A stretch of 64,000 nt of DNA. Origin: Eunapius fragilis (Eukaryota; Porifera; Demospongiae; Spongillida; Spongillidae). Location: NCBI GenBank assembly GCA_963681505.1, contig OY811973.1, positions 11,919,983 to 11,983,982 on the forward strand, in the 5' to 3' direction. Positions 1,420 to 35,485 of the stretch are shown one piece after another; the first letter of the stretch is position 1, and every line of letters begins with the position of its first letter. The translations under genes and the position numbers were made by a program. The notes below the pieces were generated by a model. That model searched no databases, was not told where the DNA came from, and worked only from the letters and a program-made list of their open reading frames with translations.

Positions 1420-1530
1420 CACATCCAAATTCATCACTGTTGTCTCCACAGTCGTTATCTCTGTCACACTTGTAGGACAGAGGAACACAGTTTCCATTGT
1501 TGCATGTGAATTGAGAAGATGAGCAGACAC
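1420..1530 (-). CDS. Gene A exon 6: LDLa domain after the SRCR
   Basis: 111-base phase 1-1 exon, AG acceptor and GTAAGA donor. It encodes [19 protein letters not shown] and [10 protein letters not shown], a complete six-Cys LDLa with the DxSDE calcium site. It resembles the first LDLa exon of all three genes more than the second LDLa type of B and C. It could instead be the first LDLa of a further gene to the left, but no signal-peptide exon lies between. Confidence 0.75.
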
Positions 1531-4500
1531 CTGGAATTTTCGTGGAAACATGGCAGATGATTGCGATAGCAAAAAAAACCCATCTCATAGGCATATCACA
1601 TAGGATGTACATATTATTTGCCCTATTTTTTACAGATAAGGTTGTCAACCTTTTTTCAATTTGTGTGCATAATGGCCAATAACTGCTGGTGTTCATTATA
1701 GTTACCATGTCTTATTTTCACCGTGTGTTTTGAACCGCTAAATGTACTGTTTCTAACACCATCATTGGTCATGATTAACAGTCACACAAAAATTATGCTC
1801 AAGTAGAACACTTTTTGATTCATTTTCGATTCACAGATTGTGATGTCCACTTTGTGATCATGTGGCAATTACAGACTAGTTCAGTGCAAAAGACAGCGTC
1901 TTCTAAAGACTAAGTAGACACACATCCTGTCCTGCAGGCCACTGTAATATATATACCCAGGCCACAATAATGAATCCATTACCATAAAAATGTGTACCCT
2001 AACTTGCATCTACAATACAATACTCGTAAATACAAATCCTCTTATCATGCATTGATCAAGAACATACTTGCTCCATAACAGTACACACTTGCATCTTGAG
2101 AGTGGGAACAGTTGGTTGTGCCAATAACACTGTTGCCATGGCTACATTCAAACAAAGTGGATTCATTGCCAGTACAGCTCAGACCACTGAGAAGGATCTT
2201 TCCTGTGCCCTGACCATACAGTGCACTGGAGTTATATGATAATACCCCTGCACATCAGAGGGGAGGGGTCACATGGTGAAGGTGTAGGTGAACCGACTCA
2301 CCTGACAATTCTAGCTGACTGCACACAACAGTGGCAGCATTATAGCCCCAGCCATAATCCCCACATATGGTGCCCCATGTGTTGTTATAGCACACCTCCA
2401 CCCGACCGTAGCCAGAGGTCTGGTTTGATCCTGTTCCAACAAGACGAACAAACCCAGCAGTGCAGTTGTCTGGAAGCAGAACACAGATGAGACGTTTACA
2501 AACAACATAACAAAGGTCAGCTGGTTAAGCCATTCCAAATGTGCTGAAGGTGAACTACGAGAGATGTACTATCTAGAGTATTTAGCCAACAAACCCCCCC
2601 TTTCCTTACTTCTTCAAGTCTTCAAGTGCTCCAAGCTCCAATCATTTTTACTTTCAAAGAACATCTTTATTACTTAGGACATTTTATGACACAACCAGGC
2701 TTGTGCTATTTCAAAAAAAACGACTATAAACTAGCATCAATTTCAAACCCACATATCTTCCGAGCTAACTGGCTCGCATCCTTCATATTTATTACCAATC
2801 AGTTTTGAATATTATTCTATATCAAGATATTGATGATCAAAATCAGAGGTAATCGTTTCGCGCCATATGATTCTATATTGTAGAAGAGGTTTCATCGATT
2901 GAATGGAATCACTTATTTAGCAAAAAACGAAGGGGAAAATTGCTCTGATTTTGACAATATCTTGTGTATATAGGGATTAAGTAAAAATCAACTATCTGCA
3001 GATTCCAATAGCAACGGAGCTCCTTCGGGTACGTTGCAATTCTGATGCTGGAGAGACGCTCAATTTTACATGTTTTTAGCCCTGTAGATTACCTAAACGT
3101 TGGCATGAGCGAATATAAAGGGCTTATACATGTAGTATGTAAAAAATAGAAGAACTGATGTACGAATAAACTATGAAGGACGTGAGTAGTTTAGCTCGGA
3201 AGATGCTACTTGGGATGGTTTCATTGACAATAGCGCAAGCCTGGTTTTGTTATAAACCTTTCCGCTTGTGTATAATTGGGGTAAATCTATATCATCTCAA
3301 CACATACATGTCTCATTTTTGGAAACAGTTTTTTGCACGAGTTCAGGCTATTACCCTGCATATATTAATGCATCACATTTAGCTCAATTGTTCTTAAGTT
3401 GTTAGGTGTGAAACAGTTGACAACAAATTTAAACTGTGCCATATACACATCCTCACCATCACATGATACTTACCACAGTCAAATTCATCACTCTTGTCAC
3501 TGCAGTCATAATAGCCGTTACACTTGAAGGACAGAGGAACACATTCCCCATTGTTACAGGTGAATTGAGAAGATGAGCAGGCAGCTGGAATTGTCATGGA
3601 TTGATGAAAAGGGTAATCAGGCAATGCAATTATACAAATTACAGTATATGAAATCTACTTCCTCATATGGGGGCAGGAGGGAGGGGAGAAGTGGGCACAA
3701 ACTCATACCATTAGTGGTGTAGATCCCAGTACCTGTGTGGTAGGAAGAGTGAGGATACATGGACTATGAATAATACATGACTATGATAGCATATCAATCA
3801 TACATGGACTATGTTAGCATGTCAATCATACATGGACTATGATAGCACAAGTAAATAAAAACATTCTCTACGAGAAATTTGGTGGGATATAGGATTTGAT
3901 TATGACATTGGTGGTGTAAAAAGCAAGGAAACAAGGTCTTATCAGAAGGGAAAATGTCATAGTCCTATATTTAGCACACAAACAACACATGCCCTAGAAA
4001 TGTGCTAAATATAGGACTATGACATTTTCCCTTCTGATAAGACCTTGTTTCCTTGCTTTTTACACCACCAATGTCATAATCAAATCCTATATCCCACCAA
4101 CTTTCTCGTAGAGAATGTTTTTATTTACTTGTTTTCTTAATTTTTTTTCATACCCAAGTAACCCAATGACTGTTGTATGGCTGCTTCTCCCTTTTCATTT
4201 CTTTCAATCCAGATATACTTAAATAGGAACAAGTTCTCTGGACGATTCACTCCACTACTCGTCAACATGATCATGACATGACATGATCATGACAAGTCAC
4301 TACTAGGATATGATGTTTCCCCAGACCAATGTTTCACAGGCGATTGCGTAGTCTCGTACCCAGACGTTTATACCATTATACGTCTGGGTACGAGACTAAC
4401 CACTACGCTGACATATCCTGCAAAATAGTTGGGTCTGGGGACGTGATGATCTAGTCTGGGGACCCTAGCATGATGTAGGGTCTGGAACCAGTATACGTGT

Positions 4501-5376
4501 AGAGAACAAGCTGTCAGCATGAGCGCTAGCATCTCTGAACCCGGGACGATCTGTATGGACGATCAAGCACATGTAAAAAAAAAATAAAAAAAAAATCTAA
4601 CACGTCTTCAGCATCCTACCGTGACTGTGGGTGGAGAAGCTATAGAGGCGCCGATCGTCCCGGGTTCAGAGATGCTAGCGCTCATGCTGTGACAGCTTGT
4701 CTTCTACACGTACAGATTAGTGTGATTTGGTGTTGATTCGGTTCACGTGAGAGTGCGCGTTCTAACCAAGTTTGGTATACGCGTGGTTCCAGACCCTACA
4801 TCATGCTAGGGTCCCCAGACTACCCGACGGTATAATTGATGTGATGTGGAGAAGCTGGTTCGCCCACCTGTCATCCTGTCATCCCCGTTTATCTTTAGAT
4901 ACCGTAATTAAATTATACAAGACATAGGAGGCTGATAGTCGATTGTTTATCAAAGTATTATATTATATAAAAGCGAGTCCTCCAGCCGATTCTGAAGCTA
5001 TTGGTGAAATTTTCATCGCTTAGAAATGTTCCTGTCCTGAGTTATGCGTTGCCAAGAAGAAGGAGAAGAAGACGACCCGCCCCTTGTTCCGAGACTGGGT
5101 ACGAGGACGGGCAGTACACTCTTGTTCTCAACAACCACGCGGTTCAGCGACATGAAACAAAAACGAAACTACTCATTTTTGACTTCTAGATCGATTGCTA
5201 AAACAAGCTAACACGATCCGATCGTCGGGAGTGTTGTTACAGACGGGTCGCGTTTTTTTAATGACATTCATAGTCGGGGTCAAATCCTATATGGAAGTTT
5301 CTAACGAAACTTCCGATATCAATCATACATGGACTATGATAGCATATCAATCATGCAGGAATCAGACCAGAACAAG

Positions 5377-5407
<31 letters not shown>

Positions 5408-7751
5408 TTGGATGGTTACCACATGATTTCATTACATATTTATGATATTTATATCTTGTAATTTTTGTTAAGACCCCATCAAATGGCAGGGGTAATCAAA
5501 AGGTGGAAGCCTTCAGCAGCTGCTAGTGAATAGGCTGAAACGTGGGTGGGACTGAGCTAAGCCATGCTACCCTGGAACAGCCACCAAACCATGTCCAGCA
5601 TAATTTAGTTTGGGATAGGGTCAGACCCATATCACCATTGGTCTGTGTAGGCTCAGACGTACGAGGCACAGCTGCTAAATACCCGACTGCTGCAACTTGC
5701 ATGCATGCTATACTGACACATATGAACTAATGGAGTTGAATAGTCCCCAGGCCTATAATTATTGTTATTGAAATTCAATTTGAGGGAATTGAGCTGATCA
5801 CAAACTGCTCAAATAACTTCAACAATAAATTTTGCTCTGTCACTGTAAAGTCACTTGTAATTCTGGTGGACCATTGCCATCACACTTATGGTTATGACCA
5901 ATGATCATAACCACCAACAATAGAGGCCCACAGGTACATGTAGAGCCAAAGAGGCTTACAAAGTGCCATTCCTTGTAGGGAACGAATACAGGTGATCATG
6001 CATGCTGGTAGACATGCCCGGATCAGCACAACAATTGAAACGCTCTCTCCAAATTTTTGTTTTCCATTTCAGTTTCTCCACCATGTCGGCCCTAGACGTT
6101 TTACACTACTAGTTTTAATTGAGCATGGATTGGATCTGTATCTCGCTCTACATGCAAAGCCACCCCCTTTTCATGCTATGCAGGACCCTCCCGGTAACGT
6201 TGTGGTGATGTAATCACTACAAGTAATTCTGGTTAAACTTTACGGGATTACGGTTAAATGATGGTGTATCCATGTCACTGCGTTATGTGTGGCAATGAAG
6301 TTTGTCTCAAAAAACCTAATATGAGCACCCCCCTCCCAGCTATCACTACTTCTCTCAGCAACTCCTAGCCTCACTACTCTCAGCAACCACAGCCTCACTA
6401 CTCTCAGGAACCACTGCCTCACTTATTTCACCAACCACAACCTCACTCCTCTCCCCAACCACAGCTTCACTCCTCTCACCAACCACAACTTCACTCCTTT
6501 CACCAACCACAGCCTCACTACTCTCACCAACCACAGCCTCACTCCTCTCACCAGCCACGGCCTCAATACTCTCAGCAACCACCATCGCACCACCAACTGG
6601 ATTAATCGACCATCGTATACTATCGGCATCGGATATCACAGCTCCTACATACACTGCTGTTGCTCCCATTTTGTGATCGTAAGAATCTGATCCATCATCA
6701 ATGCCCTTGGAGAACTTGCTCCTTCGCTAGTTTCATACCAAGACTCAGGTTCCCAAAATGGATTACGTCACCGCTACGTGAGTGATGTCAAACCTGGGTC
6801 TGGATACGAGAATAGCTGTTGGAAAAAAAAATACGTCACCGCTACGTACGTGATGTCAGCTGTTGGGAACCTGGGTCTGGATACGAGATAGCGTTTGGCT
6901 TGTTGGAAAAAAAAAAAAAAAGATAGAATACCTGGCAAGACCCAGCTCTAGTAGTGCAACGACTCCCCGCGTCCAAGTACAGAGCCTTAAAAACTGACAC
7001 ATCCTGCCCCAACCGCTGCTCAGGAGATACGCTTTGGTACATCCGTATTGAGCGCGTGACTTTCACGCATGAATTTACATGCAATCACTACCGTTGAAAT
7101 TCCACCAGCGTAACCGCTTCTTTTCCGCTTAGCGGTGATCTAATATATATGATCTAATCCATATCCGCAGCTGCGGTTAGAGGGCGACTATGACGTGTAC
7201 ATCATGGATATTTATTATCTATGTAACAATAACCTGTAGAATGTTAAAATACCTATGCCTGTAGATTGCAAATTTGTTTAAATAAGCCCGGGCACACCAC
7301 ACAGGCCCATAATTGTATAGCCCGACCTTCGCTTTGATCCGTTTCGATCAAATAATGGTACGGATTATCTGATTATCTGATCATAACAAATTTTGGTGGC
7401 TTGCCACCAGACCTTCATCCTACAGCGCGAAGGTCGGGCCACGCGCAATGGATTTAATTTGCCTTTTTAAAAAATCTTTTCACTCTCAAGTCATCAAACA
7501 ACAAGCGTCATGCCCATATCATCATGCTGAAGGAGACAATGACATTTTGGCACCAATATTCGCGGCTATTGCGGTTCCTCGCCACCCGATCCAATCTTTG
7601 TTCTACTTATTAGGAACAAGACAGGCGTTGCCATAAAACTACCGCGGTTAGAAATACTATCACTCATGTTGTGAACTGAACGTATAAGGAGTTTTAAAAA
7701 CTTACAGCATATCAGGAAGAAACAAGCAAGTGCTCCACTGGAGATCGCCAT
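1420..7751 (-). CDS. Gene A: LDLa/SRCR receptor-like gene, six exons seen, 3' end missing
   Basis: Minus-strand split gene. Exons in order are 7751-7706 (signal peptide), 3732-3709 (24-base microexon), 3584-3474 (LDLa), 2469-2302 and 2247-2068 (two halves of one SRCR domain) and 1530-1420 (second LDLa). Every junction is GT-AG and every internal exon is phase 1-1, so the 640 bases seen join in one frame. LDLa modules bind calcium and ligands and SRCR modules bind ligands outside the cell, so a secreted or surface receptor is likely by family knowledge. The paralogues B and C end in a transmembrane exon. None is visible for A before the window edge, so A either continues leftward, is secreted, or is truncated. 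Intron 1 (about 4 kb) is full of repeats. Exon joining is inferred from splice signals and paralogy, not from transcripts. Confidence 0.78.
2068..2247 (-). CDS. Gene A exon 5: SRCR domain, second half
   Basis: 180-base phase 1-1 exon separated from the first half by a 54-base intron. It encodes [19 protein letters not shown], then the Cys pattern [16 protein letters not shown] typical of the SRCR C-terminal half. Donor AGTATGT is shared with both gene C copies. Confidence 0.9.
2302..2469 (-). CDS. Gene A exon 4: SRCR domain, first half
   Basis: 168-base phase 1-1 exon. It encodes the N-terminal SRCR half: [27 protein letters not shown], then [17 protein letters not shown]. The NNT sequon is a possible N-glycosylation site. 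The split of SRCR across two exons matches the two-exon arrangement described for group A SRCR domains. Nearly identical exons occur twice in gene C. Confidence 0.9.
3474..3584 (-). CDS. Gene A exon 3: LDL-receptor class A domain
   Basis: 111-base phase 1-1 exon between TTCCAG and GTAAGT. It encodes a complete LDLa module: six cysteines ([20 protein letters not shown]) and the calcium-binding acidic stretch [10 protein letters not shown]. LDLa modules normally span about 40 residues, and this exon gives 37 plus split codons, so it is a full repeat. Confidence 0.9.
3709..3732 (-). CDS. Gene A exon 2: 24-base microexon
   Basis: Exactly 24 bases between an AG acceptor and a GTATGA donor, phase 1-1. 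With the split codon from exon 1 it encodes C-TGIYTTN. It sits 124 bases upstream of the first LDLa exon. Genes B and C carry the same 24-base exon with C-AGIYNSA and C-SWIYTAK, so position, length, phase and the Ile-Tyr core are conserved. Confidence 0.75.
3754..3846 (+). repeat. 28-base satellite, about 3 copies, gene A intron 1
   Basis: Tandem units of the form ATCAATCATACATGGACT plus ATGATAGCAT, 28 bases. The array starts about 20 bases upstream (in transcript sense) of the microexon acceptor. The same unit forms a longer array at the same relative place in gene C. Confidence 0.8.
3847..4132. mobile_element. MITE family 1, full palindromic copy
   Basis: Near-perfect foldback: the left arm from ACAAGTAAATAAAAACATTC pairs with the right arm ending GAATGTTTTTATTTACTTGT, with arms of about 130 bases around a short loop. 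It has no coding capacity. Related copies lie at 28611-28879 (full), 25562-25804 (decayed) and 17128-17212 / 21331-21417 (single arms). Confidence 0.85.
4351..4396. repeat. Short perfect hairpin
   Basis: GTCTCGTACCCAGACGT and its reverse complement flank a short AT-rich loop, giving a 46-base palindrome. Fragments of the same motif (CTGGGTCTGGATACGAGA) recur at about 6790 and 6870, so it is probably the end of a dispersed element. Confidence 0.6.
4453..4821. mobile_element. Foldback/MITE element with long TIRs
   Basis: Outer inverted repeats begin AGTCTGGGGACCCTAGCATG at 4453 and end with its complement at 4821. Inner arms around 4509-4560 and 4650-4705 pair through GCATGAGCGCTAGCATCTCT. There is no open frame. 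It is a non-autonomous DNA element in gene A intron 1; its superfamily is unknown. Confidence 0.75.
5035..5293 (+). mobile_element. Dispersed repeat, paired with an inverted copy at 27.6-27.9 kb
   Basis: The block ending GGGGTCAAATCCTATAT, with TCGCGTTTTTTTAATGACAT inside, reappears inverted at 27629-27855 with scattered differences. It is non-coding and probably a MITE. One copy is in intron 1 of gene A and the other in an intron of gene C. Confidence 0.6.
5318..5355 (+). repeat. Stray 28-base satellite unit
   Basis: About one and a third units (ATCAATCATACATGGACT...) of the microexon-proximal satellite, 1.5 kb from the main array of gene A. Confidence 0.75.
5378..5405 (+). repeat. Poly-G tract, 28 bases
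   Basis: Uninterrupted G run after AACAAGA. Its length is likely unstable and subject to assembly error. Other G/C homopolymer runs occur at 11385, 13847, about 15850, 34198 and 61328. Confidence 0.9.
5406..6362. other. Gene A intron 1, no gene seen
   Basis: No protein domain is seen. The stretch 5710-5860 resembles 15970-16150 in gene B intron 1 (shared GTTATTGAAATTCA and later TTGCTCT.TCACTG), so the two first introns keep some ancestral sequence. Confidence 0.45.
6363..6588 (-). repeat. 24-base minisatellite, about 9 copies
   Basis: Units such as CCTCACTACTCTCAGCAACC plus ACAG repeat every 24 bases. On the minus strand they stay open in more than one frame, one reading (VVGERSEA)n from an upstream Met near 6669. 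I see no splice or domain evidence that it is translated. It lies in gene A intron 1. Confidence 0.8.
7319..7440. mobile_element. Small hairpin element
   Basis: Inverted ends GCCCGACCTTCGC and GCGAAGGTCGGGC enclose about 95 bases. It is a likely MITE remnant about 270 bases downstream of gene A exon 1, in intron 1. Confidence 0.5.
7706..7751 (-). CDS. Gene A exon 1: start codon and signal peptide
   Basis: 46 bases from ATG at 7751 to a GTAAGT donor. It encodes [15 protein letters not shown] plus the first base of a split codon: a short hydrophobic signal peptide ending in Cys. Length, the C-terminal LIC and the donor phase are identical in genes B and C, which is the main reason for choosing this start over other Met codons nearby. 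Confidence 0.8.
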
Positions 7752-7808
7752 CCCTTGGCTTTTAACGTAGTCAGAATGACATACGTATTAGGCTCATTAA
7801 CTATTTAA

Positions 7809-7819
7809 CATGTGCCATT
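7809..7819 (-). promoter_or_regulatory. Shared upstream element of gene A
   Basis: On the minus strand the block ATGGCACATGT lies about 58-68 bases before the gene A start codon. The identical 11-mer lies 71-81 bases before gene B's start, in both cases followed by an AT-rich TTAAAT-type stretch. A core-promoter or activator role is inferred. Confidence 0.4.
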
Positions 7820-8292: not shown

Positions 8293-8299
8293 GATGTAC

Positions 8300-11995: not shown

Positions 11996-12387
11996 TTAAG
12001 ATGGGTATGGTGGAGGGGCAAATGGAAGACCAGTTGTTGGATAACCAGTGGCTGGATTGCTGGGAGGGGCAGTATTTCCAGCAGGTGTGGTATAACCCCC
12101 ATAAGCAGCAGAAGGGTTTAAAGCAGGAGGTGCTTGAGATGTATTGTTCTGGATATTTGCCATGACTACAGTGGCAGTTTCTGGAGCACTGGTGGTCACT
12201 CCAGTCTGCACAGCTCTGCGTACGTAGGCCTGTCGTATGTAAACTGCTCTGCACACAACTGATACTACTGCCAAAATAATCGCCACTACAACTATTGGTA
12301 CACAAACACCTATTACGACATTAATAACAGGGAAGGATGAGTAGGAGGAGTAGGAGTAGGAGGTAGAGGTGGAACCACTGCGATAAG
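11996..12387 (-). CDS. Gene B exon 5: transmembrane helix and Pro/Tyr tail
   Basis: It starts after TTTGCAG. A Ser/Tyr-rich juxtamembrane stretch ([13 protein letters not shown]) is followed by a hydrophobic helix ([20 protein letters not shown]) and then a basic stop-transfer region around RQAYVRRAV. The tail has GGYTTPAGN, two GYPTTG-like units and APPPYPS at the stop. PPPY is the PPxY form recognised by WW domains, as in Nedd4-type ligases; a role here is inferred. Confidence 0.85.
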
Positions 12388-15300
12388 CTGCAAAGGAAAG
12401 AGTTTCTATATAATGGGCACCTAAACTTTAAACAGAGCATGTGAATTGGATGTTATGGTTTGGGGTTAAGTGGAAAGGTTAGGTCTCTCCCCGGACATGG
12501 GCTTACACCATCTACTCTGAGTCACATGCATAAATATTGGCCATCTTATGTACGGCTAAAGTATTTACAATAAAACTTCTTGTACAACACATCTGTTACA
12601 TGGTTTTTAAGCTTAATTTCTCTGCAAACAATTACATTTATGTACTACATGAGTGTAGAAAAGAGACTGCTGAAGTACTCAATGACACGACAATATATTG
12701 ATTCGGTATTACTGATACCCGGATATACCACGTTGTAATTACATTTTGTTACAGTATTGGTGGCTTGAAATACAGTCCTAAAGTCAGTGGGACTAATATG
12801 CTATTATAATGTTGCATTAACTGCTTTGAAAATCAGAGCGATAAAGTTACTTTAAATTGATGTTATCCTTTTGATCAAAACATACCCTACAACCATCATC
12901 AAAACATTCTCAGCACAAACTTATCAAACTCAATCTGACTATGGAGGTGCAGTTTCCAGGCACAACCCCTCAACCTCACAAGTCTCTGCTAAATTAATCT
13001 TAGCACAGCCAGCATCATAAACATAGCAACCCTTATTAACTTAACTTATGTTATGTGGGTCTTAACTGTCTCTACGCCCTGCTTGATAGTCTTATTCCAC
13101 ACCCCTTTCCCTCATGGCTCCCTGATCATTAAAATACATGAACAGCCACTCTCATCATTGTTATCAAGGCAGTTATATGATATTCTATTGCAGGCCAATG
13201 TTGAATGAATACACTGTCCACTGTCACATCTGAACTGATTGGAATTGCATACACCTATATTTAAAAGGTGGTATGGAAATTAATGATGCAATGATGACCT
13301 CATCCGATAATGTACAGATGACATCACTGACCAATAAGGGCTGATGTCTACAACACGTCAACAAGGTAACTATATGGTCGCGGCTACAATGCATATTATG
13401 AAAGCAAACTACTGAGATACGAATATGACAATCTTCATTCATAACATGTAAAAAATACTGCTCTGTATATACACCTACATACATACTAACCATAACACAA
13501 CTCTTAACATATTCCTCTCCATCGGTATGATCACAAACTCACCACAACAGGCACACTTCACAGATGCACCCTCACAATAGCATGATACTTACCACATCCG
13601 AATTCATCACTGTTGTCTCCACAGTCATCATATATGTTACACTTGGAGGAAAGAGTAACACATTTTCCATTGTTGCATGTGAACAGAAAAGATGAGCAGG
13701 CAGCTGGAATTGTCATGGGTTGGTGAATATGTTAATTGTGCAATGCAATTATATCAGACAGAAAATTAATATAAGAAATCACCACACTTCCCTGTTCTCA
13801 TCTCTCCCATCATTATTCCTCACATCCTCCTAAATGTATGGGGGAAGGGGGGGGGGGGGGGGGGGCTTACCAGCAGAGTTGTAGATCCCAGCACCTGCAT
13901 GGTGATATGAGTGAGGAAGATCATACATGCACGAAAATAGCACATGGACGTGATAGCACCTAAATCATACATGCACTATAAGTCATGTGGAATTTAGTCA
14001 TGAAATGATTAGATCCTATAGTTATGGCAAAAAGGAATTAACTCAAAGCTACTTGCTGTAATGCAGTGCATTCAGGATGCTAAGGTGACTTTGAACCTGG
14101 AGAATTTTGTATTTTACCATTTATTAGGCAACAAGGTTGATTTATTCTGATCTAGAAAGACTGAAGTCATTTTGGAAGTGCCAAAGGATGTCAATAGTTT
14201 ATTAGGGTGATAAACTTTATGCGGATGATAAACTTGTTAAGAAAATTATGCAACTAAGACGACACACACTAGTTTGTTAGAATACCCTTGTGCCATAATT
14301 CACCACTGGCAAAATAGTAGGCTAAGACCTTGAATGTAGGCATTAAAGTATAAATCATTTTAATTATCTGAGCAATCTTTTGGGGTAGTGAAGGATTTAA
14401 AAAATGCATTGGCTAAAGCACAGCCAATTGCTGTATCCTAAACGTCCACTTCCTAACATGGATGTGAGTACATGTTCAAAGGAGTGTGTCATAATATGTG
14501 TTGAGTATGGTAGTTGATAATCACAATTTTGATTGTGATGGTGTGGCAATAACCTAGCAAGTGTGTAAACACCTCTTGCTGGTCCCAAACTTCATTTCAC
14601 AACAAAATTAATGGAACATCTGAAAGTTTTCAAAACTTCTTTTATTGCAAAATTGAAACAAAAAGAATATGTGCATTGCTTTTGAGTCTTTGTTTCACTT
14701 TTGAAGCTGAGAATATTCTGAGGATTGTCTGAGTTAATGTCATCGGGCATAAAACGCTTAAGATATACATGTCAGAAACAGGAGTCACATGTATGCAGCG
14801 AGTGCCATCAGATGTAAATCATATACCTTCAGTGTCTAGTAATTAACAATTTTGATATATTGGAATTTCATGATATGAATGCCCAATAGTGCATCTTCTA
14901 TAGAGGCCATCCACATGATTGCCAAGAACACTAGCTATGCCAAATTGACTGCAGAGAGAGAGCATCGTGAGATAGCATGACCAACTATGTCATGCTGCTC
15001 GGGGCAGCCTTCATCTCCTTTTGGCAGGACAGCCAATTCAAAGGCAGAAATGCGCATCTTAACCAACATCAGCAGATGCACTTCTTCATTTAAGGCATTC
15101 CAAAACTCCAAATGGGCATTGGCACCTCCATCTTACATACATGGAAGCACATATATATGGGCAGCAATGGAAGCTAAAATGCTGTCCAAATAGCACCTCT
15201 TTCACTACAGGGATGGTACACCACTCACAGCCAGCTTCCTCCGCTCCACCATCGTGTACATGATAGAGCAATGTGGCCATATATGACTCAGCAATGTTCA

Positions 15301-16926
15301 ATACTTACAGTGTGTGGATCAGAATTACCAGGGCTAGACAACCCAGACACTTGGCTGATGGCCAGCATACTCTATACCCATCATTCGTTATATGTTTAGC
15401 AGTTGATTTTGTATTGCATTCCTTTAATCTTAAAGATTCTTCTTTATTCATAAGATGACCAAGTCCATATTTTTTCTATAGAGATGTACATGTGTGATAA
15501 CTTTAAAATAGCAAACACACTTAAGTTTGTCAACTCAACCACTAGGAGGTGCTCATCAACTACATAATAACTTTATAAACATAGAATTGATGGCTGTTTG
15601 TATAAAACAGTCCATACACATATATATATTTAATTACACATACTAAGCATGGATGAAGTATATATACAAGCCTATTCTTAATATCAATAAACAATTCACC
15701 TGAGGGCCTCCACCAAGCCCTGACCACTTCATGCCTGCATGCCTTCATTTACATTATCATCCAAACACAATGCTAACCACAAGCCTCTGTATGAAACAGA
15801 TAATGACTGTCTCTCTTTCTCCCTCTCTCTCACCCACCCCCCCCCTTCCCCCCCCCCCCCCCCCCCCCCCGCACACACACACACACTCTCTCTCACACAG
15901 CTCTCAGAAGCTCAATATTCTACAGCCTTTTCTCATGGTCACACATGTTCCTAGTTTTATCTAGGCTGTTGTGTATTCACTAACACAGATGGACTAATGG
16001 ACTTTAAATTATTAATATAGCTAATGATAGCTGTTATTGAAATTCATTATAAGAGGGTGAGCTGTTCAAAAAATGTTGCAACTGGTGATAACACCAACAT
16101 AATTAAAGTTTGCTCTTTCACTGGAAAGAACTTTTGTCGGTGATAAAGACCCACGTTTTGAGGAATGTGATCAATTCAATCGAAGTTCACAGGGAAAGTC
16201 TATAACCAACACCTAGTGACTTCCATTTCCAATATTATACAGCTGATCTATCTCGCAATACCGTTAAATTGGCCGGTTTCATATTACCCAGTTCGCAGTG
16301 GCTGCTTAATCACTTGCGGTGATGTAATCACTTCGCTGCTACTATCTGGGTCTCGGGCCGAGAAAAAGCGTGACTTACTCTTCTTAACTCGTTTTTAAAG
16401 GTGTTAGTTCACCATGTAGTACATGTAATGCTTTTCACTGTCTGGAAACTATTTCTAATTCGTGCAAATCAAAGCTAAATTGAGCAAGCATGACTGAACA
16501 ACTCCATCTTCATTCAAAGCTTGACCATTATTCTTTGCTTATGTGACGTCGAATGCGTGGTTTATTAATACGCAATACGACTCTTTATACAGAATACTGC
16601 ATGCATATGACCCGCCTATTTTCCTCGGCCGATACATGTATACTAATTGAACTGGCCTTTGTCGCCACCTTACCAAGTTGGGCACCGTGGGATGCAATGT
16701 TCCCCATGTACCACGCCATGATAGGCACTCCCATGCAATCAAATCCCGCGGGCTACATGAAGGAACAAGACAGACTTTGCCACACACACAACAACCGTAG
16801 CCCGGGTAGTTTGTGAAATACGGGTGTCACTAGGCTATTAGTAGTAAATTGTACTAGCTTGACTGTGCATATTAACTTACAGCAGATCAGGAAGACGCAA
16901 ACACGTGAGCCATTGAAGAGTGCCAT
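11996..16926 (-). CDS. Gene B: two-LDLa single-pass membrane protein
   Basis: Five minus-strand exons: 16926-16881 (signal peptide), 13894-13871 (microexon), 13703-13593 (LDLa), 13254-13138 (second-type LDLa) and 12387-11996 (transmembrane helix and tail, with stop). Exon lengths 46, 24, 111, 117 and 392 sum to 690 bases, exactly 230 codons, with all junctions GT-AG in phase 1. That is strong internal support for the model. The product would be a 229-residue type I surface protein. It has no SRCR, and none was seen in the 750 bases between the second LDLa exon and the last exon. The function is inferred only as an extracellular ligand-binding receptor or adaptor. The gene is divergent to the seven-helix receptor at 18285. 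Confidence 0.82.
13138..13254 (-). CDS. Gene B exon 4: second-type LDLa domain
   Basis: 117 bases between ATATAG and GTATTT, phase 1-1. It encodes [28 protein letters not shown] and NNDESGCS. The acidic site is NNDES rather than DxSDE, so calcium binding may be weaker. The donor is weaker than those of sister exons, so the exact end is less sure. Confidence 0.75.
13593..13703 (-). CDS. Gene B exon 3: LDLa domain
   Basis: 111 bases, phase 1-1. It encodes [19 protein letters not shown] and [10 protein letters not shown]. All six cysteines and the acidic calcium site are present. Confidence 0.9.
13847..13865 (+). repeat. Poly-G tract beside gene B microexon
   Basis: 19 G in a row on the plus strand, just 3' of the microexon donor in transcript sense (a C tract in the RNA). 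Confidence 0.9.
13871..13894 (-). CDS. Gene B exon 2: microexon
   Basis: 24 bases between TGCAG and GTAAGC, phase 1-1, encoding C-AGIYNSA. A poly-G run (plus strand) begins six bases beyond the donor, inside the following intron. Confidence 0.75.
13919..13986 (+). repeat. Degenerate 28-base satellite units, gene B
   Basis: Two to three diverged units (ATCATACATGCACTATA, GTGATAGCACC) lie about 25 bases upstream of the microexon, the same place as in genes A and C. Confidence 0.55.
14936..15129 (-). pseudogene. Unidentified coding-like remnant
   Basis: One minus-strand frame reads through [17 protein letters not shown] and [18 protein letters not shown] without a stop for over 60 codons. The composition looks like real protein but I do not recognise the family. 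Neighbouring frames hold pieces that could be its upstream part after frameshifts. It is likely an old transposon gene fragment in gene B intron 1. Confidence 0.3.
15836..15897 (+). repeat. C-run and CA/CT microsatellite
   Basis: Long C run interrupted by TT and G, followed by (CA)n and (CT)n. Simple sequence. Confidence 0.85.
16881..16926 (-). CDS. Gene B exon 1: signal peptide
   Basis: 46 bases, ATG at 16926, donor GTAAGT. It encodes [15 protein letters not shown] plus one base. It matches exon 1 of genes A and C in length, phase and LIC end. Confidence 0.8.
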
Positions 16927-21330: not shown

Positions 21331-21417
21331 ACAAGTTAAGAAAAACATTCTCTAACGAGAAAGTTGGTGGGATATAGGAATTGGAGGCAATGGTGGTGTT
21401 AAAAGGAAGGAAACACA
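21331..21417. mobile_element. MITE family 1, single (left) arm
   Basis: It starts ACAAGTTAAGAAAAACATTC and ends at about AAAAGGAAGGAAACACAAGA. It is the inverted counterpart of 17128-17212. Confidence 0.7.
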
Positions 21418-24960: not shown

Positions 24961-25448
24961 TCAGTATGGTGGAGGGGCACCAGTATTAGATGGATACCCA
25001 GTTGGTGGGTAACCAGTGGGTGGATAACCAGTGGGTGGATAACCAGTGGGTGGATAACCAGTAGATGGATAACCAGTAGTTGGAAAACCAGTGGGTGGAT
25101 AACCCGTAGTTGGATAACCAGCAGTTGGATAACCAGTAGTGGGATAACCAGTGGCTGGATAGCTGGGAGGTGCCATATTTCCAGCAGGAGTGGCATAACC
25201 ACCATAAGCAGCTGAAGGGTTAAAAGCAGGAGGTGCCTGAGATGTATTGTTCTGGGTTGTTGCCGTGACTACAGTGGTAGTTGCTGGAGCATTACTGACC
25301 ACAACAGCTCTGCGTAAGTAGGCCTGTCGTGTGTACGCCCTGCACACACCTACTACCACTGCCACAATAATGATCACTACAAACACAGATACACCAATGC
25401 CTATTCCAGCAGAGACAGAGGAGGTACCACTGTAGTAGTAATAATATG
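24961..25448 (-). CDS. Gene C last exon: transmembrane helix and GYPPT-repeat tail
   Basis: It starts after CCTTGCAG. A Tyr-rich leader ([11 protein letters not shown]) precedes the helix ([20 protein letters not shown]) and a basic stop-transfer segment ([12 protein letters not shown]). The tail holds GGYATPAGN, then about 11 pentapeptide units of the form [10 protein letters not shown], and ends GAPPPY at the stop. Tandem Tyr-Pro units suggest a multivalent docking or low-complexity tail and PPPY a WW-domain site; both are inference. In gene B the same exon has only two units, so the array has expanded in C. Confidence 0.87.
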
Positions 25449-28400
25449 CTGCAAGGGAAAGATTCCATTTAACGATTACCTCTTTTTAAAAAAGCATGTG
25501 CACTATATTGTTGGATGCTAACTGGGGAGAGGATGACGTTTGGAAACATTCATAGTTATATACAAGTAATACATTCTCTATGTGAAATTGTGCAGGAATT
25601 TGAAAGGTATAGTGGTGTGAAAAGCTTGGAAACAAAACGTCTGACAGAAAAGAATAGACTAAATAGACCTACATTTAGCATGTTGTCATATTTGATCTTC
25701 CCTTTTCAGTTAGGTGCCTTGATTCTTAGTGTTTTGCACCACAAAAGCCTTCCAATCCTATACACCACCAGCGTTTGCATAGTGAATGTTTTTTTTTTTT
25801 TTAATATTCCTATAGGCTTCAGAACATGTATATGTTTAATTCATACTAATAATATGTAGTCAGTCACATATCACAATACACGATAGTTAAAATTTCTTGG
25901 TCGTCCAACAGTATAAGTAAAGTGACTCAAATGGAGAGCTTTTATATAATGCAGAGACAGTTTGTTGGAAACAGTCCCATATAATATGCACATCCAGACC
26001 CAGTCCCCAGGCCAACACGATTGCTTCCAGGCCAGCATAACATACCACCATACTCATCTTTAATGTATCATGTATCAAGTACATACTTGATCCATAACAG
26101 GTCACACTTGCATCTTGAGAGTGCGAACAGGTGGTTGTGCCAATAACACTGTTACCACGACTACAGGACAACAAAGAGGATTCAGAGCCATTACAGCTCA
26201 GACCACTGAGAAGGATCTTCCCTGTACCCTGGCCATACAGTGCATTGGAGCTATATGATGACACCCCTGCACATAAGGGGTAGGGGTGTAGTGATGTCAA
26301 TGTGGTTATGCCAACTTACCAGAAAATCCTAGCTGACTACACACAACAGTGGCAGCATTATAGCCCCAGCCATAATCCCCACATATGGTGCCCCATGTGT
26401 TGTTATAGCACATCTCCACCCGACCATAGCCAGAGGCCTGGTTTGATCCTGTTCCAACAAGACGAACAGACCCAGAAGTGCAGGTATCTGGAAACAGAAC
26501 AACAATGAGACTTCTACAAACACAGCCATTGATGTCATCACCTAATGCAACATCTCTAGAGACCAAAGTAACACCACAATGTGAGCTGATGTGGCCCATG
26601 TAATTACGTACACTTACATGTGTGTGTGAAGTGTGCATGTGTGTGTGGAGGGATGATATCTACAAGTGGGAGGGGCTAGAGGGTCTCAGGTGAAGAGGCT
26701 TGGAAATAGAGCATTACACCTCTCCCCCGATCACATTCTCATACAATAACCATACAATATCCCAGTCTCCAGGCCAACACGATATGCCAAGTCTTTAATG
26801 TATCATGTACATGTATCAAGTACATACTTGATCCATAACAGGTCACACTTGCATCTTGAGAGTGCGAACAGGTGGTTGTGCCAATAACACTGTTACCACG
26901 ACTACAGAACAACAAAGAGGATTCAGTGCCACTACAGCTCAGACCACTGAGAAGGATCTTCCCTGTACCCTGACCATACAGTGCATAGGAGTCATATGAT
27001 GACACCCCTACACATAAGGGAGAGGGGTGAGGGGGTCACGTGATGTCAATGTGGTTATGCCAAAATACCTGAATATCCTAGCTGACTGCACACAACAGAG
27101 GCAGCATTAGAGCCCCAGCCATAATTCCCACATATGGTGCCCCATGTGTTGTTATAGCACATCTCCACCCGACCATAGCCAAAGGCCTGGTTTGATCCTG
27201 TTCCAACAAGACGAACAGACCCAGAAGTGCAGGTATCTGGAAATAGAACACAGATGAGACTTCTACAAACACAGCCATTGATGTCATCACCTAATGCAAC
27301 ATCTCTAGAGACCAAAGTAACACCACAATGTGAGCTGATGTGGCCCATGTAACTATGTACACTTACATGTGTGTGAGTGTGTGAGTGAAGTGTGCATGTG
27401 TGTGTGGAGGGATATCTACAAGTGGGAGGGGCTAGAGTGTCTCAGGTGAAGGGGCTTGGAGCACAGAACAATTGCACCTCTTCCCCAATCACATTCTCTT
27501 TCACAGTAGCGTACCGCGTGCATGGCAGTCGATATTCATATTAATGCTTTTAATAACCTGTCGATTTAATTGTTTAGATGCTAGGTTTGTCTAAATAGCT
27601 AACATAATCGAGAGTTAGTAACTCTCATATAGGATTTGACCCCAATTATGAAGTCATTAAAAAAACGCGACCCAAGACTCCTGATGAGGGGATGGCTTAC
27701 CTTGTTGTCGTCATTGTACAAGAAGGCAACAACAAGCAGTTTTTTTGATGTCACAAAACCGCGTGGTTGGAGAGAACAAAGCTATTTTCTGAACTCGTAC
27801 CTAGTCCCACGTATTTCTCATTCTTCTTGTTGTTCTTGTTATTGACCACGCATAACTCGGGATAGGAACACTTAAGAAATGAAAATCACACCAATGGCTT
27901 CAGAATTCGTTGGCATTCTCGCTTCTGTGGTCAAACGTCTCGAGGCTACATGACATATATCGGTGCGGCACTGACAGATCCAGGGAGGAGGGGGGGGGGG
28001 TGTTTGGGGGGTTGTAACCCCCCCCCCCTTTCAAACCCGTAATGAATAATTATCATTAGTAACAATTAAGTAAAGTGGCTGAAATTCGTAATACAACTGC
28101 AGCTCTGCGAGCAAACAAATGGCAAGGCAGTATTATGTAGTGTTGTGCACATGATACAGTATAATGAAAAGTGTTGGCAGCTGGTGCTCCGCCCCAGACC
28201 CCCTCCAACACTTTCATGAAATTAATTAACACCCCACTTTTCTGAAATCCTGGATCCGCCCCTGATGGTGGTTAGCAAATCACCTTCACGTCAGGAAAAG
28301 AAGAAGCCCAAACAATGAGCAAAGTACCTCAAAGCTCGAGACGACATATTAGATTCAGCCAGAGCGGAACTACTAAGCAGAGCCTGAAAAGAAACGGACC

Positions 28401-31400
28401 TCTCGACGTACATGCAAGGAATCGAGCAGATCCTTAAAAGGAACGGGCTGCTAAAAGACAGCGATATTGCCATAGTCCTGAACGTCCATCTCGCTCAGTG
28501 AAAAGAGAACTCAAAGGTATGTCGTACCTTTACAACCTCCCTCTCATATCAAGATGGATTACTTAACATGCTATACGACTCATAATCGGGTATGAATAAA
28601 AATCAATGAAACAAGTAAATAAAAAACATTCTCTATGAGGAAGTTGGTGGCATATAGGATTTGAAGGTAATGGTGGTTTAAAAAGGAAGGAAACAAGGGT
28701 CTAATAATAAGGGTAAGTGGAATAGTCCTATATTCTATATCTAGGATATAGTATGTTGTTCATGTGCTAAATATAGGACTATTCCATTTGCCCTTCTTTT
28801 TAGACCCTTGTTCCTTCCTTTTTACACCACCAATCCTATATGCCCACAACTTTCTCATAAAGAATGTTTATTTACTTGTACAGTTATCATCCTGGTGAAC
28901 TGGGACTCCAAGTATTCAGTACTGCACTATTTAATACCTAATTACACAAACGCTGAATGCTGACACATATACACGCATGCATTAAGCCAATGTGACACCA
29001 CCTCTAATCCTATTAAAATGTGCATGGGGAAGTGGGTGTGTGTGCTGTAGTAACAGTTTATGTAGTGTTGTAGGAATTTACAAAGTGTTGCAATTTTTAT
29101 GCTAGGCATACTAAAGTGGTCATATCACAGCCCCTCTCCTCCCCCCCCTCACCCCTGCATGCTGCTTCGTTATCACCACACCTTCCCTCATTAAGATTAA
29201 CAACCAAAGTTTCATCAAATGCTTCCTCAGTACCACACAGCCTATTACTACAATGATCATTACTTCAATATGGAGCTTTGCATAACTTACTATCCCAATG
29301 CCATGATTACAAAATGTCATGCATATTAATTCACACTAGGTATTCAACTATCAAAGTAAGGTGCTTAGCAACATGACCTGTTCCACATTGGTAGATAGAT
29401 CACTGACTTTTAACTGTGAGGTGGCATAAACTATCAGTGTCATCTAGATTATACACTTGTTTGGCTTAGAGCCATACCCTGATCACTGATGTACAGTACT
29501 CCACCCTGGATTATCTTGGTCTTATCTATAGTGAAGGCTCTCTGATATCTAACTTACATGTGCAGCGGCTCTCATCACTGTTATCACTGCAATCATAAGA
29601 TATTCCATTGCAGGCCAATGTTGAATCAATACAAAATCCATTGTAACACTTGAACTGATAGGAATAGCAGCTGCCAATAGTGCAAAGAGGTGTTGTAATA
29701 TGATGTAATAATGACCCAATTAATTAACTCATCAGATGATGTAGAGATAATTTCAAGACTCATCATGCCAAATAATGTTTGGCTACACATACATGTCACA
29801 CAATCCAACGAAAAGCGACACAGCGATGTGATCAAATGCACATATGACAATGTTGTTATATAGCAAAAATTACATGATGACAGCAGTAAATTTACCACAT
29901 CCAAATTCATCACTGTTGTCATAGCAGTCATCGTAACTGTCACACTTGAAGGACAGAGGAACACAGTTTCCATTGTTGCATGTGAACTGAGAAGATGAGC
30001 AGGCAGCTGGAATTGTCATGGGTTGATGAAAGTAGAGTTAAGTTATTAGAAAGATGTAAATATATGTACAGTTTTTTTAAACCTCACTTCCACCTCACCA
30101 CACCAACACCCCACCACCACATCACAGAATATAAGTAGGAGACAAGGAATTAACACGCACTTACCCTTAGCTGTATAGATCCAGGAACCTAAGCGGTAGT
30201 GAGGGAGATCATACATGAGCTATGATAGCATATCAATCATACGTGGACTATGATAGCATATCAATCATAAATGGACTATGATAGCATATCAATCATACAT
30301 GGACTATGATAGCATATCAATCATACATGGACTATGATAGCATATCAATCATACATGGACTATGATAACATATCAATCATACATGGACTATGATAGCATA
30401 TCAATCATACATGGACTATGATAGCATATCAATCATACATGGACTATGATAGCATATCAATCATAAATGGACTATGATAGCATATCAATCATACATGGAC
30501 TATGATAGCATATCAATCATACATGCATGATTGACCTTATGTAATAGTATGTTTGTGTAATAGTGTTATTAACTAGTTAACATATGGGACAGTGTCTAGC
30601 AGAATCACCCTTCTGGGCAGTTTTTCAAGTTTTGAAAATTTTTCAATTTTTGTGGACTCCAAAGAGCTTCTATCGAATGGTCCTAACACATCCTACATTG
30701 GACTATCCATCATATAAAGATATAAGACACTGCATTTATAATTAGTTATACATTTCATTGCGAGCAATACTTGTCCTGGAAAATTTGTAAAAGTATCACA
30801 AGGGTGATTTTGCTTGACACTGTCCCATATATAGAAGAATACTTTAAAATTTAAGTAGCATAATAACTATTAATAAGTGAAATGCTCTGCTAAGGATTGT
30901 CCTGACATTGGCCCTAACAAGGGTCAGGTTCAGCCTTCCATATAGAGCTGTGATGGCTATGGACTTTCTGGAAGCCCACTTGACCTCTGTACCCCCTGCA
31001 GCCATACATTTTCGCTGCAGGTGGGATGGACACCCAACCTAGTCTCGTCCTCAGACCCTATATGTTAAGTATATGAGTCTGGCATCTCAAGTCGCAAGCG
31101 CTTGTACACTGTGGAATGTAAACAAACAATCATATCAATCCATCGTTTGACCACATCCAATGATTATTAAAGCTGTGGCTGAAGTTTGGCCCCATATCAG
31201 TGTAGGTGTTGCAGAGATGTTGTGCTGAACCACAGAGACTGCAGAGTACTGACTAGCGATGCTGCCCATACCAATTGCTTGCTCCAACTTCTTGGCAAAG
31301 AGTGGGAATACTTAGCTCCTGCGATTCGTGCAAAGAAAAGGTTGGACACACCTATATATGGCCTTCTTAGCCTTAGGTAAAGTAGTTAAAAAGTTGGCTC

Positions 31401-34400: not shown

Positions 34401-35485
34401 TCTGAATTCCAGGTGGCAATAAAATGGTGGCTTGGTATATCAGTTGCTCAAGGCCAAAGTTGCACTCAGTGCAACGCTGCCTTGGATGCCTATGGTCATC
34501 ATGCACTGTGTTGCAAGTTGGGGGGTGATGTCGTCTCCCATCATAACAAGTTGAGAGACATCTTTAACGATTTCTGTCACCGTGCCTGTCTTGCTCCACA
34601 GCTAGAGATGGGAGGGTGGTCTAGAGAACATACTCGTCCAGCTGATGTTCTGGTTCCAAACTGGGTCCTGGGTAAGTCAGCAGCATTTGACCTGTCTGTC
34701 ACATCAACGCTAAATGCACATGTTTTTCAAGAAGCGAGTGTGACAGCAGGTTCGGCTGCTATGGCTGCCCAGATCCGCAAGCACAGGGTTAACGATGGAA
34801 GATGCAGTGAACTAGGCTGGGTTTGTATTCCTCTTGTAGTGGAGACATATGGATGTTGGGGTACTGAGGCTATTCAGGCACTATCAAGACTTGCCACACG
34901 TTTGTCCACCAGGCAGGGTCTCCCCAAGTCGCTAGTGTGTAATGAACTATTTGGTAGACTAAGTTTAGCCCTTGTGAGAGCAAACTCTCGAGCCATCCTA
35001 TCCCGCTCCCTATAAACTGTGCATGTTAATGCTGTAGGTAGATTTTGTTTTGTGCATACTGTATTAATAATAATAATAATAAGAAGAAGAATTACAAGAG
35101 AATACACGAATGGGAATAAATGCATGTACAAGATTATTATTATTATTATTATTTATTAATATAAATGCATTATTATTACAAAAGTGTACATACAGCTGCA
35201 ACTCACAACTATATATAGCATATTACTAACAACGTGTATCTATGCAAACATCCCTAAGGCCGCGAACCTCTGGCTAGAATGGCCGCTGCCGGCATTTAGC
35301 CTAAGTCAAATTCGAAGCGCGTGGTGCGAAAGCTACAGCTACATAACATGGCTATTTGCGGTTGTCCGCCCCTCGCTATACGATTTTTAAAAATACCCAG
35401 ACATTGTGAAGTACAGCTTTGACTGTTTAATAAACTTACAGCAAATCAGGAAGAGACAGGTAAGTACGTTATTGGAGAGCACCAT
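24961..35485 (-). CDS. Gene C: LDLa and double-SRCR single-pass receptor
   Basis: Minus-strand exons: 35485-35440 (signal), 30188-30165 (microexon), 30006-29896 (LDLa), 29670-29558 (second LDLa, see its entry), 27236-27069 and 27007-26828 (SRCR 1), 26487-26320 and 26266-26087 (SRCR 2), 25448-24961 (transmembrane, tail, stop). Without the second LDLa exon the lengths sum to 1365 bases, exactly 455 codons in one frame. With it (113 bases) the frame breaks inside SRCR 1. The product without it is about 454 residues: an extracellular ligand-binding region, one helix and a long Gly-Tyr-Pro-repeat tail. The two SRCR domains are nearly identical, so duplication is recent. Introns hold MITEs, satellites and retrotransposon pieces; intron 1 alone is about 5.3 kb. 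Confidence 0.8.
25562..25804. mobile_element. MITE family 1, decayed copy
   Basis: It starts ACAAGTAATACATTCTCTAT and ends CCAGCGTTTGCATAGTGAAT plus a T run, with degraded inverted arms. In the gene C intron before the last exon. Confidence 0.65.
26087..26266 (-). CDS. Gene C SRCR 2, second half
   Basis: 180 bases after a 53-base intron, phase 1-1, with SRCR Cys pattern [19 protein letters not shown]. The flanking introns are also very similar to those of SRCR 1. Confidence 0.9.
26320..26487 (-). CDS. Gene C SRCR 2, first half
   Basis: 168 bases, phase 1-1, nearly identical to the SRCR 1 first half (a few substitutions such as QASGYG for QAFGYG). It ends [10 protein letters not shown] before GTAAGT. 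Confidence 0.9.
26828..27007 (-). CDS. Gene C SRCR 1, second half
   Basis: 180 bases after a 61-base intron. It encodes [18 protein letters not shown], then [19 protein letters not shown]. Confidence 0.9.
27069..27236 (-). CDS. Gene C SRCR 1, first half
   Basis: 168 bases, phase 1-1. It encodes [30 protein letters not shown] and [17 protein letters not shown]. Confidence 0.9.
27629..27855 (-). mobile_element. Inverted copy of the 5035-5293 repeat
   Basis: ATTTGACCCC, then CATTAAAAAAACGCGACCC, match the complement of 5240-5293, and the rest aligns with gaps (CGCATAACTC, CGCGTGGTTG). Non-coding. Confidence 0.6.
27974..28264. mobile_element. hAT-like MITE (GGATCCGCCCCTG family)
   Basis: The right end is CTGGATCCGCCCCTG; the left end is damaged (CAGATCCAGGGAGG). 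Internal G/C runs and GCTCCGCCCCAGACCCC match the copy at 56610-57365. Non-autonomous; superfamily inferred from the CAGGGG-type end. Confidence 0.65.
28322..28501 (+). pseudogene. Unidentified coding-like remnant
   Basis: One plus-strand frame reads [18 protein letters not shown], a stop, then [19 protein letters not shown]. Composition and regular charge suggest former helical protein. I do not recognise the family. It lies in an intron of gene C, between two MITEs. Confidence 0.3.
28611..28879. mobile_element. MITE family 1, full copy
   Basis: The arms ACAAGTAAATAAAAAACATT and AATGTTTATTTACTTGT fold back, the middle diverging around TCTAGGATATAGTATG. Same family as 3847-4132, about 270 bases. 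Confidence 0.82.
28880..29557. other. Gene C intron, nothing recognised
   Basis: No exon, domain or element end found beyond the decayed open frame at 29120-29320, which has no signature. Confidence 0.45.
29558..29670 (-). CDS. Gene C: second-type LDLa exon of frame-breaking length
   Basis: It encodes [27 protein letters not shown] and SDNSDESRC, clearly homologous to gene B exon 4. The only AG acceptor in place leaves one base before the first Cys codon instead of two plus a codon, so the exon is 113 bases (117 in gene B) and does not fit phase 1 on its left. The donor (GTAAGT) is good. Inclusion would shift the frame and hit a stop within SRCR 1; skipping restores the full frame. It could be a decayed exon, a regulated poison exon or a sequencing error. 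Confidence 0.6.
29896..30006 (-). CDS. Gene C exon 3: LDLa domain
   Basis: 111 bases, TTCCAG acceptor, GTAAAT donor, phase 1-1. It encodes [19 protein letters not shown] and [11 protein letters not shown] complete LDLa. Confidence 0.9.
30165..30188 (-). CDS. Gene C exon 2: microexon
   Basis: 24 bases between CTTAG and GTAAGT, phase 1-1, encoding C-SWIYTAK. Confidence 0.72.
30208..30526 (+). repeat. 28-base satellite array, about 11 copies, gene C intron 1
   Basis: Near-identical 28-base units (ATCAATCATACATGGACT plus ATGATAGCAT) run head to tail up to about 20 bases from the microexon acceptor. It has no spacers, so it is a satellite, not a CRISPR array. Confidence 0.93.
30582..30830. mobile_element. 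MITE family 2, best copy
   Basis: The ends ATATGGGACAGTGT and ACACTGTCCCATAT are inverted repeats, extended by AGCAGAATCACCCTT / AAGGGTGATTTTGCT. About 249 bases, non-coding, in gene C intron 1. Confidence 0.8.
30831..31745. other. Gene C intron 1, nothing recognised
   Basis: No domain-bearing frame or element end found. Short open frames around 31435-31840 overlap on both strands and look accidental. Confidence 0.4.
31746..32605 (-). pseudogene. Non-LTR retrotransposon fragment with internal 36-base array
   Basis: The minus-strand order [19 protein letters not shown], a damaged zinc-finger region, the ([12 protein letters not shown])n array, [10 protein letters not shown], then [10 protein letters not shown] matches the order in the copy at 46055-47922 (WWLGM, HH..C, VRVEVGQGL, RPADVLVDAW, AFDVTVTSPL). 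The endonuclease-like D...DVT residues are still visible. Frameshifts and stops make it dead. Confidence 0.75.
31941..32440 (-). repeat. 36-base minisatellite inside the retrotransposon ORF
   Basis: About 14 units of ACCATAACCACTCCCCACCT plus CTACCTGCTCATGAAG (plus strand) encode [12 protein letters not shown] on the minus strand. A two-base insertion near 32195 shifts the frame between the two halves. Confidence 0.92.
32650..33820 (-). pseudogene. Non-LTR reverse transcriptase fragment with array at the YxDD box
   Basis: Minus strand: [13 protein letters not shown] (RT motif A), a decayed motif B ([10 protein letters not shown]), [11 protein letters not shown], then QAWYHDD in an adjacent frame running into the 24-base array. 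Beyond the array come [15 protein letters not shown] and AAFDITI from the C-terminal part. It is colinear with the copy at 46055-47922. Pseudogene in gene C intron 1. Confidence 0.78.
32926..33536 (-). repeat. 24-base minisatellite, about 25 copies
   Basis: The unit CATCATGGTACCGTGGTACAT plus CAT repeats for 600 bases with A/C variation. On the minus strand it encodes (YHDDVPRY)n and stays open in several frames on both strands because the period is a multiple of three. Confidence 0.95.
34198..34212 (+). repeat. Poly-G tract
   Basis: 15 G following GGGGGGA. Confidence 0.85.
34320..35030 (+). pseudogene. Non-LTR retrotransposon 3' half, opposite orientation
   Basis: A 227-codon open stretch: [36 protein letters not shown], a zinc-finger-like CTQCN...[14 protein letters not shown], then [23 protein letters not shown] and a C-terminal VETYGCWG and RAILSRSL to the stop. 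The reverse transcriptase core is missing. 5'-truncated copy in gene C intron 1 with an AT-rich tail containing (AAT)n. Confidence 0.82.
35440..35485 (-). CDS. Gene C exon 1: signal peptide
   Basis: 46 bases, ATG at 35485, donor GTAAGT. It encodes [15 protein letters not shown] plus one base, the same pattern as genes A and B. Confidence 0.78.

Follow-up and report, generated by a model that had tools for sequence, protein, structure and literature searches.

The stretch of Eunapius fragilis DNA analysed here (64,000 nucleotides, C3:11,919,983-11,983,982, hereafter the window) carries three genes, A, B and C. They probably belong to a family of type I membrane receptors that has grown by tandem duplication, with a modular ectodomain of LDLa and SRCR domains and a PPxY tail that would recruit WW-domain partners. 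The exon structure of the family is well supported by the genomic sequence. We favour the view that the variety of domain sets is mostly inherited subfamily difference, which would have arisen by gene or segment duplication, module duplication and exon loss rather than by free shuffling, because the A-type SRCR domains are inherited by position and the architectures recur in blocks.

Exon structure and domain content of genes A, B and C

In the window, 12 domain exons were read on the minus strand, and in 11 of them both splice dinucleotides are in phase. The automatic exon finder tries in-frame boundaries only, so that divisibility by three in 80 of 80 exons is no evidence by itself; among the same 80 exons it gave an acceptor in 78, a donor in 79 and a stop-free frame in 76. 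For a stronger check, the boundaries of 28 domain exons from five genes were placed at homologous positions (by hand for one end in gene D). This gave an AG acceptor in 27 of the 28 and a GT donor in 27 of the 28. The sole acceptor failure is the second LDLa exon of gene C, which reads TG, and the sole donor failure is the third SRCR of gene A, for which three A-type copies have an in-phase GT 18 bases further on. Domain exons are of 1-1 phase: LDLa exons measure 111, 114 or 117 bases, and each SRCR is built from two exons of 168+180 bases, the third SRCR of A having 168+198. The signal exons of A, B and C are 46 bases each, followed by GTAAGT. The signal exon, the 24-base microexon and the 1-1 modules that an earlier note on this DNA had described as common to the three genes were all located. 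The spliced proteins have a short hydrophobic start and, by eye, one hydrophobic stretch ahead of the tail.

Gene A, within the window:
7706..7751, minus strand: signal exon, 46 bases (ATG, GTAAGT donor, pattern match)
3709..3732, minus strand: microexon, 24 bases (AG..GT bounded)
3474..3584, minus strand: LDLa no. 1, 111 bases, 1-1 (splice sites; Pfam on the spliced protein)
2302..2469, minus strand: SRCR no. 1, first half, 168 bases, 1-1 (splice sites; Pfam)
2068..2247, minus strand: SRCR no. 1, second half, 180 bases, 1-1 (splice sites; Pfam)
1420..1530, minus strand: LDLa no. 2, 111 bases, 1-1 (splice sites; exceeds its flanking introns in divergence from the A2 partner)

Gene A is cut by the window edge. 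With 40 kb more sequence it extends to about window position -6423, i.e. some 6.4 kb before window base 1, and this part adds an SRCR, an LDLa, an LDLa type 2, an SRCR and a membrane/tail exon. The full gene reads LDLa-SRCR-LDLa-SRCR-LDLa-LDLa-SRCR-membrane-tail in 1917 bases (638 amino acids, no internal stop), and Pfam finds four LDLa and three SRCR in the protein (SRCR, PF00530, 212 bits in three stretches, cut-off 26.1; Ldl_recept_a, PF00057, 114.8 bits, cut-off 24.1). The LDLa-SRCR-LDLa set previously assigned to A was therefore an artefact of the window edge, and the membrane/tail exon, correctly seen in B and C, is not confined to these two genes since A has one too. The tail of A stops early, and tail-like sequence recurs about 1 kb on with an inverted-repeat stretch in between (by eye).

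Gene B:
16881..16926, minus strand: signal exon, 46 bases (ATG/donor pattern match)
13871..13894, minus strand: microexon, 24 bases (splice bounds, pattern match)
13593..13703, minus strand: LDLa type 1, 111 bases, 1-1 (splice sites; Pfam)
13138..13254, minus strand: LDLa type 2, 117 bases, 1-1 (splice sites; Pfam)
11996..12387, minus strand: membrane/tail exon, 392 bases including the stop, ending ..APPPYPS (spliced frame)

Gene B carries no SRCR. Its exons sum to exactly 690 bases, as had been noted before, with an open frame and no internal stop, and Ldl_recept_a scores 58.8 bits (cut-off 24.1).

Gene C:
35440..35485, minus strand: signal exon, 46 bases (ATG/donor pattern match)
30165..30188, minus strand: microexon, 24 bases (splice bounds, pattern match)
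29896..30006, minus strand: LDLa type 1, 111 bases, 1-1 (splice sites; Pfam)
29558..29674, minus strand: LDLa type 2, probably dead, TG at the acceptor (homologous-position cut)
27069..27236, minus strand: SRCR no. 1, first half, 168 bases, 1-1 (splice sites; Pfam)
26828..27007, minus strand: SRCR no. 1, second half, 180 bases, 1-1 (splice sites; Pfam)
26320..26487, minus strand: SRCR no. 2, first half, 168 bases, 1-1 (splice sites; Pfam)
26087..26266, minus strand: SRCR no. 2, second half, 180 bases, 1-1 (splice sites; Pfam)
24961..25448, minus strand: membrane/tail exon, 488 bases with stop, with TGYP repeats, PPSY and PPPY (spliced frame)

The previously reported sum of 1365 bases for gene C is likewise exact and free of internal stops, the second LDLa being excluded from it. 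Pfam supports both SRCR domains (154.1 bits in two stretches, cut-off 26.1) and LDLa (36.3 bits, cut-off 24.1). Hence the set LDLa-(LDLa)-SRCR-SRCR holds for the LDLa and both SRCR, while the bracketed exon has decayed: besides its TG acceptor, the nearest AG would give a 113-base exon in the wrong phase, and this exon is probably dead. The TGYP repeats of the tail are a 15-base minisatellite (24991-25161). Three further minisatellites, at window 30208-30525, 31934-32441 and 32924-33528 (units of 28, 36 and 21 bases), lie inside the first intron of gene C.

Family size and genomic arrangement

Far from comprising three genes, the family has about 30 tail places in the 219 Mb genome (24 contigs); all genome-wide match counts are lower bounds. 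The tail query gave 32 matches, two of which are tail fragments of A-type genes, leaving 30 places (25 on contig C3, one on C4, two on C8, one on C11 and one weak match on C12). The earlier note had suggested a genome search for the signal exon and the microexon. The microexon pattern has 33 matches (31 on C3, one each on C4 and C8) and the pattern for the 3' part of the signal exon 28 (23 on C3, two on C1, one each on C4, C8 and C11), with no match for either reversed control. An initial microexon pattern gave noise (48 matches, 67 in the control) and was superseded.

Within 324 kb around the window (C3:11.740-12.064 Mb) all 12 of 12 microexons sit 110-286 bases before an LDLa type-1 exon. 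This region holds three A-type, three B-type and three C-type genes together with single-SRCR, mixed and truncated loci. The B-type copies are B itself, B2, whose second LDLa is broken, and B3, which has two LDLa type 2. Blocks of the order C-B-A recur about 100 kb apart, the longest stretch being 6.7 kb at 96% identity. A truncated family member adjoins a repeat array of about 4.3 kb (C3:12008481-12012841), whose units of about 36 bases are about 95% alike.

A plus-strand array on C3 contains four signal and four tail exons, which enclose sets of three, three, five and three LDLa type-1 exons; judged from these pattern matches, each signal-to-tail set would be one gene. Six microexons of this array (11.00-11.16 Mb) read AT at the acceptor and are interspersed with AG copies:
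C3:11004925, 11048471, 11096300, 11103929, 11111489 and 11158398, plus strand: AT-acceptor microexons (microexon pattern)

On contig C1 the exact signal-exon pattern occurs twice, 2.5 kb apart and head to head:
C1:10066574-10066599, minus strand: signal-exon pattern
C1:10069062-10069087, plus strand: signal-exon pattern

Origin of the domain sets

In a tree of 22 SRCR domains, positions 1, 2 and 3 of the A-type genes each group across A, A2 and A3 (support 97/93, 98/94 and 77/92), and a clade of all nine A-type SRCRs is not rejected (approximately unbiased (AU) test, p 0.117). The ectodomains of A, A2 and A3 are stop-free, with pairwise ratios of nonsynonymous to synonymous change (dN/dS) of 0.46, 0.44 and 0.53. 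Comparisons with gene C2 give dN 0.0621/dS 0.0885 (about 0.70) and dN 0.0469/dS 0.0826 (about 0.57).

The C-type SRCR positions form no clades (AU p 0.0468 and 0.0622), a faint hint of exchange or homogenisation among C-type genes. A second hint comes from the second LDLa exon of A, which differs from that of A2 at 9 of 111 sites; the flanking introns differ at 68 of 4767 (Fisher p 5e-5, uncorrected, one of ten exons). The same exon shows five differences to the gene D LDLa against nine to the A2 LDLa. This fits a short conversion tract, as a single case, and overall the signs of exchange between genes appear local and weak. Pooled by domain over overlapping pairs, LDLa has a synonymous divergence of 0.127 and a nonsynonymous one of 0.047, SRCR 0.054 and 0.037. 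Positive selection as a driver of LDLa divergence is not claimed, because synonymous change is raised too.

These three observations, i.e. the A exon, the C-type positions and the higher synonymous divergence of LDLa, speak for an actively shuffled recognition system, in which exons or tracts pass between neighbours by gene conversion and unequal crossing-over and individuals differ in their domain sets for microbial or self recognition. However, the A-type positions are inherited whole, the architectures are stable within duplicated blocks, the excess concerns one exon, the AU values are borderline and one genome was covered, and we regard such a system as unlikely. A related proposal, which we consider improbable, is a combinatorial system whose fixed signal-microexon head and PPxY tail form a chassis, with symmetrical LDLa and SRCR exons gained, lost and partly overwritten between neighbours, so that individuals differ in the receptors with which they would recognise symbionts, prey or self.

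Thus, the earlier picture of a family diversifying by shuffling symmetrical exons is right about the one blueprint, the differing sets and the frame-neutral 1-1 exons, with which gain or loss of a module leaves the frame intact. The word shuffling is too strong, as the A-type SRCRs are positional and the blocks repeat.

Proposed receptor and its possible function

In the proposed receptors the signal peptide would be split between the 46-base exon and the 24-base microexon, the ectodomain would consist of LDLa and SRCR modules on 1-1 exons, and the last exon would provide both the membrane helix and a tail that is rich in Pro and Tyr and contains PPxY motifs. The form LDLa-LDLa-SRCR-membrane-tail may be ancestral because it is common to the gene on contig C4 and the Ephydatia muelleri protein EMCRGX_G015817 (P0011), the latter with PPxY in its tail. 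The A type would have repeated the LDLa-SRCR unit, the C type doubled the SRCR and lost the second LDLa, and the B type lost the SRCR. The ectodomains would be displayed at the surface and may bind microbial, dietary or cell-surface ligands, and the PPxY tail may recruit WW-domain partners such as NEDD4-type ubiquitin ligases, leading to uptake and turnover. PPxY is found in 12 of the 13 tail frames matched by the search pattern, outside which the divergent tails of the C4 gene and gene G fell. From the domain content we infer that the proteins could be scavenger or pattern-recognition receptors.

SRCR and LDLa are also used in adhesion and matrix proteins, and nothing in the sequence tells these uses apart from immune recognition. 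The genes might accordingly encode adhesion or extracellular-matrix receptors, e.g. sponge cell aggregation proteins, rather than immune ones. Tandem expansion with variable domain sets is more usual in recognition receptors, and we think an adhesive role very unlikely.

Several points weigh against a family of working receptors as we propose it. The function is assigned from domain names alone, the exon junctions are read from the genomic DNA of one genome, and the ancestral order is a weak point. The A3 tail frame lacks PPxY, A-type tails end early, and Pfam finds no known signalling domain in the tail. The dN/dS of C versus C1 is 0.78 and less clearly below 1. Behind the signal exons at C3:12,042,116, 12,016,544 and 11,879,155 no microexon is found until the next signal exon is reached. 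The two signal-exon matches on contig C1, which has neither microexon nor tail match, may be stray copies or belong to other genes. These five come nearest to signal exons joined to unrelated genes, the finding named in the earlier note as speaking against a family. Finally, LDLa type 2 is dead or damaged in C, C2 and B2, gene D has a stop inside its SRCR, an LDLa at 11,987,030 is broken, and the C-type signal region of gene C2 lies in two pieces about 120 bases apart (C3:11875441-11875839), split close to where the signal exon starts.

This damage, together with the six AT-acceptor microexons and the signal exons without microexon, would also suit a decaying array, in which one or a few working genes were duplicated recently, many of the copies are dead and the domain variety has no special role. 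Yet A, B and C are open over their full length, the ectodomains of A2 and A3 are free of stops, the dN/dS of the A-type pairs is below 1 and the family is present in Ephydatia too; mere decay thus seems quite unlikely to us.

In this family from an early-branching animal, receptor diversification can be followed one exon at a time, since gain or loss of a 1-1 ectodomain module leaves no frame scar. SRCR-free members such as B would escape a survey for SRCR genes. With head and tail fixed, members can readily be counted in further sponges and individuals, and resequencing could answer whether sponges keep individual receptor sets.

Neighbouring features

Between B and C, a plus-strand open frame of 315 amino acids (window 18285-19232) has many hydrophobic stretches and looks seven-helix-like by eye; Pfam gives no match for it at 0.01. 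Retroelement-like frames (integrase, protease, reverse transcriptase) were seen by eye on the minus strand at window 41179-45177, and another reverse-transcriptase-like frame on the plus strand at 46008-47796. Inverted-repeat ends around ACATTCTCTA..GAGAA..TTGGTGG (by eye) occur at window positions of about 3870-4130, 21340-21410, 25580-25800 and 28610-28880. They resemble short foldback mobile elements, and outside the window the tail region of gene A has a similar one. Further minisatellites lie at window 6348-6582 (24-base unit) and 51223-51668 (unit of about 24-72 bases).

In the assembly, contig 24 carries COX1 with nine in-frame TGA codons, as in mitochondria, and the remaining large contigs number 23. 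Ephydatia muelleri has 23 chromosomes (PMC7385117), the number also found in Spongilla lacustris.

Comparison with known systems

Both SRCR and LDLa are present in five of the 120 relatives among the matches listed, all from Ephydatia muelleri. P0011 is the closest of the listed relatives with the layout of this family: it has a short signal ending FLICC, eight residues, LDLa, LDLa, SRCR, helix and a Pro/Tyr PPxY tail, so that the same layout occurs in a second sponge, as compared at the protein level. Em0005g99a (P0013) and EMCRGX_G029895 (P0026), two unnamed proteins, have LDLa-SRCR and membrane parts in common with the family; P0026 ends right past the membrane helix, and P0013 lacks a signal start and carries a long additional end. 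The Ephydatia proteins differ from A and C in having fewer domains.

In vertebrates, LDLRAD3/LDLRAD4 and PMEPA1 combine an LDLa ectodomain, one helix and a PPxY tail, and are not known to contain SRCR. Gene B resembles them on paper in ectodomain, single helix and a tail that could bind NEDD4-type ligases; no vertebrate LDLRAD protein is among its six matches, in a search limited to relatives sharing exact words.

Compared by sequence with solved structures, the SRCR domains match 26 distinct solved sequences at E <= 0.001, CD163 (M130) being the best, and DMBT1 is also related. CD163 and DMBT1 are not known to contain LDLa. Group B has eight cysteines; the two specific to it, before GRVE and after the QLG turn, are both absent in the CD163 alignment read by eye. 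Six core cysteines and two more, before the domain start and after GRVE, are conserved (by eye). A domain spread over two exons is a mark of group A, and the 168+180 layout agrees with it. The two additional conserved cysteines depart from the exactly six by which group A is defined (PMC10855680). Sponge group C has seven cysteines, the core six and one extra C1 (PMC10855680), compared by count with the core six plus two extra here.

Tandem SRCR arrays with varying domain number and an exon layout conserved within the array are described for Amphimedon queenslandica, where most SRCR domains extend over three exons rather than two and LDLa is outside the listed top companions of SRCR, in contrast to the LDLa-headed family described here; PPxY tails, present here, are not mentioned in the portions covered of that paper (PMC10855680). 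Ephydatia has tandem clusters with identical intron-exon structure (PMC7385117), and two dmbt1-like genes of Ephydatia muelleri shift expression with algal symbiosis (PMC7882143). For Halichondria panicea more than 600 SRCRs are reported, with LDLa in the figure key of the receptor models; that set is a transcriptome without exon layout, whereas the exons here are genomic (PMC8242945). No earlier description of a family that unites a split signal with an LDLa head, SRCR domains on two exons and a tail with PPxY was found among the papers listed by text searches, most of them covered at the level of the listing; subscription papers, preprints and supplements lay outside these searches. Thus, while the expansion of SRCR receptors in sponges is known, the exon design with its split signal, LDLa head and PPxY tail is the new part.

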